NCBI GenBank assembly: GCA_020072965.1
Contig: JAIQFY010000032.1
Coordinates: 1-58,852, forward strand
Direction of reading: 5' to 3'
DNA from: Terriglobia bacterium
GTDB taxonomy: Bacteria; Acidobacteriota; Terriglobia; JAIQFV01
Length of the DNA: 58,852 bases
Shown: one piece after another, positions 53,325-57,330 of the stretch
How the letters are laid out: each line of letters opens with the position of its first letter
How positions within the stretch are numbered: position 1 is the first letter of the stretch
Position numbers and translations under genes: made by a program
Notes under the pieces: generated by a model
Told to the model about the DNA's origin: nothing
The model's input: only the letters and a program-made list of their open reading frames with translations
The model's database searches: none

Positions 53325-56300
53325 TCAGAAGATGAGTTTCAGCGCCAACTGCACCTGACGGGAGGTTGTCGCCGTGGACGTGATTACCCCCGCGGAATTG
53401 GCGAGACTTGTACCTGAAAACACGACTTGACTCGGGGTCCCAAAGTTGGCACGGTTCATGAGATTGAAGGTCTCCGCCCGAAACTGCAGCGTCAACTTCT
53501 CGCCCATGATGAACTCCTTGAACAGAGAGGTGTCAAACGTGAACAGGCCCGGGCCTATCAGTGACCCACGCGCGACGTTGCCGAAGGTCCCCGGAATCGG
53601 ACGTGTGAATGCATGAGGATCGAACCAGCGGTCCGGCGAACCCAGAACGACAGGCCCGCCAAAGGCGGGATTCCAGTTCGGCACATCGGGATTGAAGGTG
53701 TCGCCCGTGCCTGAGACATTCGCGCCCACCTGGGGCGTGAATGGGAACCCGCTTTGAGCCGTAATGATGCCGTTCCACTGCCAACCGCCAATCAGTTGCT
53801 CCACAAAGCCACTGGCATTTCCACCCAACGAACGGCCCCGTCCAATGGGGAGTTCATAAGTGAAATTCGTGTTGAATTGGTGTTTCATGCTGAATGCCGA
53901 CACTCCGCGGTTGAGCGCAAAATTGAAGGGGTCCAGAATCGATTGGGGTTCATTCTGGCCACTGGAATTGGTGATCGCGGAATTGAGGTCCATCACCTTC
54001 GAAAATGTATAATTCACTCTAAAGCTAAGCCCGTGCGAGGCGCGTTTCACGACCGAGAGATCCAGGGCATGGTAGTTGCTGGCGCCCTGGAAAAGCCACG
54101 AGAAGGTATTCGCGACGAACGGGTTCGGTCGCGTCCCGGGCGGCATGTACACTGTTCCCTGCGGCACCGTCGCCACCACCGAGCCGACTCCACCGCTGGC
54201 GCAACCGGCAGGATTCGAGCAGATCTGCGGGGGCGCAACATTGCGATCAATGCTGAGGGACGTGTGGTACGCCTGCGACCCCACATAACCGACGAGCAAT
54301 TTGAGATTGCGGGTAATCTCCCGCTCGAGCGTCAAGCTCCATTCCTGAACGGTGGGGGTACGCATCTCGGGATCGACCCCGCCGGGAGAAAAGATCGAGC
54401 ACGGCGTTCTGGCTGCCTGGAGCTGCGCATTGCAACTGGGAGGCGGCTGGGTCCCCCCGGGAATCGGGATAATGGATAGCAGGGGGGTGTTCGAAATCGA
54501 CATGCGTGCATTGAATGGCGGGTTGGCGCTGATTCGATGCGCCAGACTATCCTGAAGATCGTTATAAATCCCAAATCCAGCCCGCACCGACCACTTTCCA
54601 GTCCCAGTTGGATCCCAGGCGACGCCAACGCGCGGCTGCCACAGCGCGTGGGCATGATTCTGAGTAAAGATCGAGTCACCCACCAGGGGATCCGTCAGGA
54701 TCATCTCATGAGTGTCGAAGAGGTAGTTGGCCGCCCGGCCCGAGACTTCATTCCACCCTGTCGTCATCTCATCTCGCAAACCGATGCGAATCGTCAAGTT
54801 CGGTTTGAGCTTGATCTCGTCTTCGACGTACCACGCGGCCTCCGTCGAGCGGTAGCTCAAAGGGGTGGGATTCGGCGTGGCGACAAACGATGTGGGCTTA
54901 TCCTGCAGAAATGCCGTCAAAGAAGGGTAGCTGACCGAACCGCTCAGGGCCAGGTGGGCGCCGCTGAGGTTCTGCTGTACCCGCTGTATCCAAACGCCCG
55001 CGCTGATGGAGTGAAGTCCCCGGGTGAAGTGGACATCGTCGGATCCGGTAAAGAGGTTTCGAACATTCCGGGTCGTGCGGGTACCGGCCGGCGATGTCAC
55101 AGCCGCCGCGACCGTGCTCACGACGCCGCCACCGATGCTGATAGCGCCCGGGGCGGTTCCGCTGATCAACCACAAGGACGGGGGGATGGGCACGGTGGTC
55201 GGAGTCTCCGAAAGGGCGTAAGCCCGCGTGAATCCGAATGTCGCCGTGTTCAACAGCGTCGGGGAGAGTATATGGGTCTCCTGGACGCTCAGCAGTTGCG
55301 TGCGCTGGAGCGTCGACGTCAGAAACACGGGATCCGCCTGCGGCGTGTCATTTTCACCATCGTCAATGGTGTAGCTGGCTGACAGTGAATCGTTCGGGGA
55401 GATCGAGTAGTCCAATCTCGTCAAACCAAAATCCTCCCGAATCCGTTGAGGGGGGTTGCTGAAATTCAGCGCCAATCCGCCACCCAGCGTGGGACCATTC
55501 GGAGCGGGCCAGTAGGCAAAGAATGGCAACATTTTCGGTTGCAGCCCGGGCACCGGAACTTCAGCGCCGCCCGGCCCGATTGGCAAGAGTCCTTGCCGTG
55601 CATTCGCATCCGGCACGACCGCGACATTGCTGAGCCCCAGTCGTTGACGAAATCCCTCGTAGTTTCCGAACAGAAAGAGTTTATCCTTCTTGATCGGCCC
55701 TCCCAGGGCTCCTCCAAACTGGTTCCGCTTAAACGGGGATGGCCCCTCCGAGTGATCAAAGAAATTACGGGCATCCAAGGCGCTGTTTCGGAAAAACTCG
55801 AAGACATCGCCATGCAGCTGGTTGGTCCCTGAAGAGGTGACGATGGTGACCTGACCGCCGGCGCGCTTCCCATACTGGGCCCCGTAAGAGTCCTGAAGCA
55901 CGTTGAATTCCAGCACGGCGTCCACCCCCAGCAAAAGTCCGCTTGCGCCGCTTGGCAAAACAATCTGGCCGCTGTCGTCCGTCCCGATATATTCAACTCC
56001 ATTCATCAAGAAGCGATTCTCTTCGGGCCGCCTACAATCTGGCCGCTGTCGTCCGTCCCGATATATTCAACTCCATTCATCAAGAAGCGATTCTCTTCGG
56101 GCCGCCTTCCCGCCACGGAAAAAGCATTGCCCTGCACCCCTGAATGATAGTTATTGGTATAGTTGCTCGTACCCGTGTTGAGGGTCAGGAGCTGATCGAA
56201 ACTGCGCCCGTTGAGGGGGAGGTCCTTGACCTGACGTTCTCCCACGAGCCCATTTGTCGAGGCGATCGTCGTGTTGACCAGCGGAGCTTCTCCCGTCACG

Positions 56301-56686
56301 GTCATCGTTTGTTGCACATCACCTACCTCAAGCCGCACATCGACGATCGCTTGAGTGGACACCACGAGCGTGATTCCCGCCCTCACGAAAGCCTTGAACC
56401 CGGCCTTTTCAACCCTGAGTTGATACCTGCCGACAGGGATCGAGAGTGCCGAGTAATTGCCGCCTTCGTTGGTGAGCAGCGTCCGGGTCATTCCTGTCTC
56501 TACGGCCGATAGGATCACGGACGCACCGGGAACGGCTGCTCCGGATGTATCTTGAACGGTCCCCGTAATGGTCGCAGCAGGCTCCTGGGCCCAAATTACC
56601 GTCAGCGAAAATATCAGAATCACGGAACCCAACAGGAGCCAGGACTTCGGGTCGATGCATTGGATGGGGGCTCTTTCTGAAGCCAT
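53325..56686 (-). pseudogene. Oar-like TonB-dependent receptor split by a 74-bp duplication
   Basis: The N-terminal part (56686 down to about 56034) has a signal peptide, a carboxypeptidase-regulatory-like domain (ATITGTVQDTSGAAVPGASV) and the plug start (VGERQVKDLPLNGRSFDQLL). It then stops after GGPKRIAS. The remaining frame (56009-53325) starts at the repeated LMNGVEYIGTDDSG and continues with a complete plug and barrel of about 890 residues (GDVFEFFRNSALDARNFFDH to the final QVQLALKLIF). An exact 74-bp tandem duplication at 55960-56107 shifts the frame by two bases. Removing one copy restores a 1095-residue protein, 3288 bases including the stop. GAGG precedes the ATG at 56686. Such receptors import or bind polymers at the outer membrane. 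Confidence 0.9.
55960..56107 (-). repeat. Exact 74-bp tandem duplication inside the receptor gene
   Basis: The copies at 55960-56033 and 56034-56107 are identical over all 74 bases and adjacent. The unit covers the coding segment RRPEENRFLMNGVEYIGTDD plus the next residues. Because 74 is not a multiple of three, the frame downstream is shifted. Either one copy is a replication slip in the organism or the assembly joined a collapsed repeat wrongly. Confidence 0.95.
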
Positions 56687-57235: not shown

Positions 57236-57330
57236 CTTGGCCCAAGGAGATAGAGGGTTCGATTAAGCCCATGGAAGTGGAGAGTTCGATTAGGCCCAAG
57301 GGAGTGGAGACTTCGATTAGGCCCAGAGGG
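57236..57330 (+). repeat. 27-bp tandem repeat, about 3.5 units
   Basis: Units start at 57257, 57284 and 57311 and read TTCGATTARGCCCAWGG-type followed by GAAGTGGAGA or similar, with a partial unit before the first. The period is exactly 27, so it could be read as a 9-residue repeat on the minus strand, but no gene context supports this. Confidence 0.7.

Follow-up and report, generated by a model that had tools for sequence, protein, structure and literature searches.

Acidobacteriota carry many Oar-like TonB-dependent receptors, whose typical layout is an N-terminal PF13620 domain followed by a PF25183 barrel. In pneumococcal capsule genes (the type 3 locus, cap8E, and tts), spontaneous and reversible duplications lead to capsule phase variation, according to the accounts of Waite 2001 and 2003 given in PMC4243769 and PMC4022640. 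In a tetA assay in Escherichia coli, 101-bp tandem repeats are deleted at high frequency independently of RecA (PMC8378479). The receptor gene described here resembles the capsule genes, as those accounts present them, in that a tandem duplication within the open reading frame disrupts a surface-related gene and that precise loss of the extra copy is possible in principle. However, a phenotype and its reversion have been described for the capsule duplications, whereas the receptor is known from one assembled sequence. The process seen in the tetA assay is the one by which a 74-bp copy would be removed here, although that assay is an engineered one, with a 101-bp repeat and in a different organism.

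The receptor gene (53325..56686, minus strand) lies in a 58.9-kb window, the whole stretch of Terriglobia DNA that was analyzed (58,852 nucleotides). The earlier note had described it as an outer-membrane receptor split by an exact 74-bp tandem duplication. The identity was right: a profile search found PF13620 in the 5' part (E value of 7e-19, 68.3 bits versus a cut-off of 32.3) and a complete PF25183 (OMP_b-brl_4) barrel in the 3' part (E value of 6e-198, 660.4 bits, profile positions 1-838 of 838). The gene is a disrupted member of the Oar-like TonB-dependent receptor family, with which it shares the domain order, an N-terminal carboxypeptidase regulatory-like domain and a C-terminal outer-membrane barrel, as well as the full length of the barrel. 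Instead of the single continuous secreted polypeptide of these receptors, which the orthologue in a relative retains, the window copy has two open frames, located from the open reading frame list and the profile search. The 5' frame (226 aa; 56006..56686, minus strand) runs from a hydrophobic N terminus through the CarboxypepD_reg domain into the start of a plug-like region and, after 8 out-of-frame residues, ends in TGA. The 3' frame (894 aa; 53325..56009, minus strand, first ATG at 56006) contains the complete beta-barrel region and lacks a signal peptide. Neither frame has further internal stops. Among named records, the closest match found came from an acidobacterial metagenome-assembled genome, with 52% identity in the barrel part; searches of solved structures, NCBIfam, and a plasmid collection gave no match. 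Upstream of the gene, at 57239-57325, TRF found a 27-bp unit, GGCCCAAGGAGATGGAGAGTTCGATTA, in 3.2 copies with 78% matches.

The duplication itself was confirmed both by TRF, which reported a period of 74, 2.0 copies, and 100% identity at 55960-56107 of the window, and by direct comparison of the two copies. The start-proximal copy (56034..56107, minus strand) and the start-distal copy (55960..56033, minus strand) are identical at every letter, and an exact 74-bp tandem match is not a chance occurrence in 58.9 kb. As in phase-variable genes switched by tandem duplication, an exact direct tandem repeat lies inside an open reading frame and the length of its unit is not divisible by three (74 mod 3 = 2), so that the extra copy shifts the reading frame. 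The borders of the duplication have no extra homology (the run length equals the period) and no microhomology, the unit has no stable fold or hairpin (DNA fold z of 0.78), and there are no Ns at the site.

PF25183 had 55 match segments in the same genome, corresponding by our reading to about thirty genes. No comparable repeat was found in the other loci of the receptor family that were examined (L041-L070). A second family member, on contig C14 (L130:3937-7464), has an internal in-frame TAA that leaves frames of 536 and 638 codons.

Relatives were compared, as the earlier note had proposed. The same-genus comparison was with one genome, designated G001, with one genome per species. The syntenic orthologue in G001 is an intact single frame with one copy of the 74-bp unit, and it adjoins the same flippase-like gene as the window gene does. 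The calculation in the earlier note that the gene would be whole without one copy (3362 - 74 = 3288) was correct, as the G001 gene is exactly 3288 bp long and encodes 1095 aa. Between the window and G001, 5 of the 74 positions of the unit differ. When aligned to the G001 gene, the two halves of the window gene overlap by exactly 74 bp, and synteny with G001 is unbroken across the duplication site and to either side of it. Therefore, the two flanks of the duplication belong together. This continuity, as a feature of the sequence, would also be compatible with an overlap of two true neighbors that was written twice. In relatives more distant than G001, judged from BLAST coordinates, the two-copy pattern was not seen.

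The divergence from G001 also gives a rough date for the event. With the halves left unjoined and dN/dS computed piecewise (dS of ~0.5), the comparison with G001 gave 0.185 in the 5' part; in the 3' part, which aligns to G001 free of gaps, the value was 0.069. When changes were polarized with three more distant homologues as outgroups, amino acid changes in the window lineage versus the G001 lineage numbered 21:26 in the 3' (barrel) part and 16:9 in the 5' (N-terminal) part, and neither skew was significant. The low dN/dS values and unskewed lineage changes demonstrate ordinary purifying selection on the gene until very recently, with no sign in either measure of prolonged or lineage-specific decay. 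The absence of any difference between two copies that would have been freed to diverge at the rate seen since the split from G001 suggests, in a rough calculation, that the event falls within roughly the most recent tenth of the period since that split. The statement in the earlier note that the duplication is recent or an artefact was thus borne out by the identical copies, the single copy in G001, and the lack of decay; on the sequence data, it would be very recent if it is not an artefact.

A repeat scan, in which the longest period considered was 1000 (2000 in part of the sequence), covered 2.14 Mb of the 5.9-Mb genome, and 0.26 Mb of G001. In the 2.14 Mb there were four more exact duplications in high-complexity DNA, of 38, 49, 51, and 67 bp. 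Gene names at these sites are our reading of the translations. The 67-bp duplication (L103:3606-3739, contig C36) has blunt borders and interrupts a TPR-type gene, of which two overlapping frames are left, one of 616 codons and one of 700; the 67-bp unit is single-copy in G001. The other three have two copies each: the 51-bp duplication (L035:1255-1356, contig C70) is in frame within a 941-codon frame, the 38-bp duplication (L035:7356-7435, contig C70) is in a degenerate integrase-like region, and the 49-bp duplication (L091:18182-18279, contig C24) is outside long frames. All five duplications are exact, with none partly diverged, and all are shorter than 75 bp. Only the 38-bp duplication has border homology (4 bp); those of 49, 51, 67, and 74 bp have none, which makes four of the five blunt. 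Two break otherwise well conserved genes that are single-copy in G001, and the remaining three sit in poorly conserved, noncoding, or in-frame positions. The window duplication is therefore one of several similar duplications scattered over the genome, a pattern indicative of a mutational or assembly process that acts genome-wide. No similar repeat was found in the Granulicella tundricola plasmid pACIX901 or in E. coli K-12, in samples of 50 kb each that are too small for a background rate. On contig C10 (L148:2422-2630), two Ns lie beside a 74-bp repeat of C-rich hairpin-type sequence, which is likely an assembly or scaffolding blemish.

These results bear on several explanations. The earlier note had suggested that gain and loss of a 74-bp copy might act as an on/off phase switch for a surface receptor. 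The proposed mechanism is possible in principle: there is the precedent of reversible duplications inside pneumococcal capsule genes, as recounted in the sources given above, the 101-bp repeats in E. coli are often deleted without RecA (PMC8378479), and the receptor gene was constrained until very recently. Nevertheless, a switch is improbable and the suggestion went unsupported, because G001 has a single copy, the paralogue loci examined (L041-L070) have no such repeat, neither a hairpin nor border microhomology marks the site as a hot spot, and equivalent duplications occur elsewhere in the genome, in unrelated DNA. Neither relatives nor paralogues showed recurrence in excess of the genome background, and nothing marks the duplication as maintained or selected. 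The associated idea that slippage could restore the gene fared better, in that precise loss of one copy is plausible. However, such reversibility is generic to short tandem duplications, including the other four, and is therefore not evidence of a switch. A shade less probable again is a broader version in which short tandem duplications with blunt borders, arising throughout the genome at an elevated frequency, turn Oar-like receptors off and on. It is also conceivable that both frames function together. The TGA of the 5' frame and the first ATG of the 3' frame share one base in the sequence TGATG (56004..56008, minus strand, read from 56008 to 56004), and this arrangement could permit some reinitiation, which would yield a separate barrel protein. 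That protein would have no signal peptide and its export would be impossible, G001 keeps a single reading frame, and the identical copies leave no time for selection of a split, so that the probability of joint function is close to nil.

The choice is thus between an ordinary recent gene disruption and an assembly slip. An assembly artefact, in which two contig ends overlapping by 74 bp were joined unmerged and the gene is truly intact, has a substantial chance that nonetheless falls short of even. Exact copies with no border homology are what end-to-end joins would give, and the wider pattern, with four of five duplications blunt and all five undiverged, also fits unmerged contig overlaps. 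The confinement of all five below 75 bp, despite the long periods scanned, the disruption of two otherwise well conserved genes, and the two-N gap beside a 74-bp repeat on contig C10 favor the same explanation. However, the duplication site has no Ns, and a single N run, of two bases, was present in the 2.14 Mb checked. Furthermore, some contig tips share exact stretches of 128-137 bp, a hint that the k-mer exceeded 74, in which case reads would have been required to support two tandem copies. The three duplications in dispensable positions likewise argue against an artefact, as tolerated positions are expected of real mutations that survived selection. On balance, a real mutation was ranked slightly more likely than an assembly error, and the probability that the duplication is a real, recent loss-of-function mutation, generically revertible and with no evolved switch, is marginally better than even. 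Other origins for the second copy were considered. Ku-type blunt end joining is an unlikely cause because a search found no Ku gene, and hairpin-driven slippage was rejected because the unit has no stable fold. A chimeric join, whether between strains or of unrelated or foreign contigs, was rejected because synteny is continuous and there is no long-range step in identity at the site.

A real mutation would represent one very recent event that placed an exact second copy of a 74-bp stretch of a single Oar-like receptor gene directly beside the first, possibly by copy choice or template switching without end homology. The two-copy state would then be present in cells and would probably abolish function: the extra copy would shift the frame and the protein would be truncated before the barrel, making the assembled allele a null. 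With about thirty genes in the family, one such loss might be tolerable. The null may also be revertible, as one copy could be lost by RecA-independent slippage, as for any short direct tandem repeat. If real, the duplication is another short tandem duplication that inactivates, potentially revertibly, one gene that a large family of receptors can spare. Caution is warranted in either case, as the presence in 2.14 Mb of five exact duplications, between 38 and 74 bp in length and two of them breaking genes, bears on any call of a pseudogene or a switch in this assembly.

Diverged tandem repeats were considered as an aging series that might prove a natural process, and this was rejected because they are mostly intergenic hairpin-type or low-complexity repeats, a different class. 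Hairpin-type (REP-like) repeats are frequent in both genomes of the genus and are often in tandem, with 93-99% identity. Examples are at L072:16002, L092:1165, L113:3343, L114:11713, L116:2582, and L164:10777 in the genome that contains the window and at L139:15621 and L140:18112 in G001.
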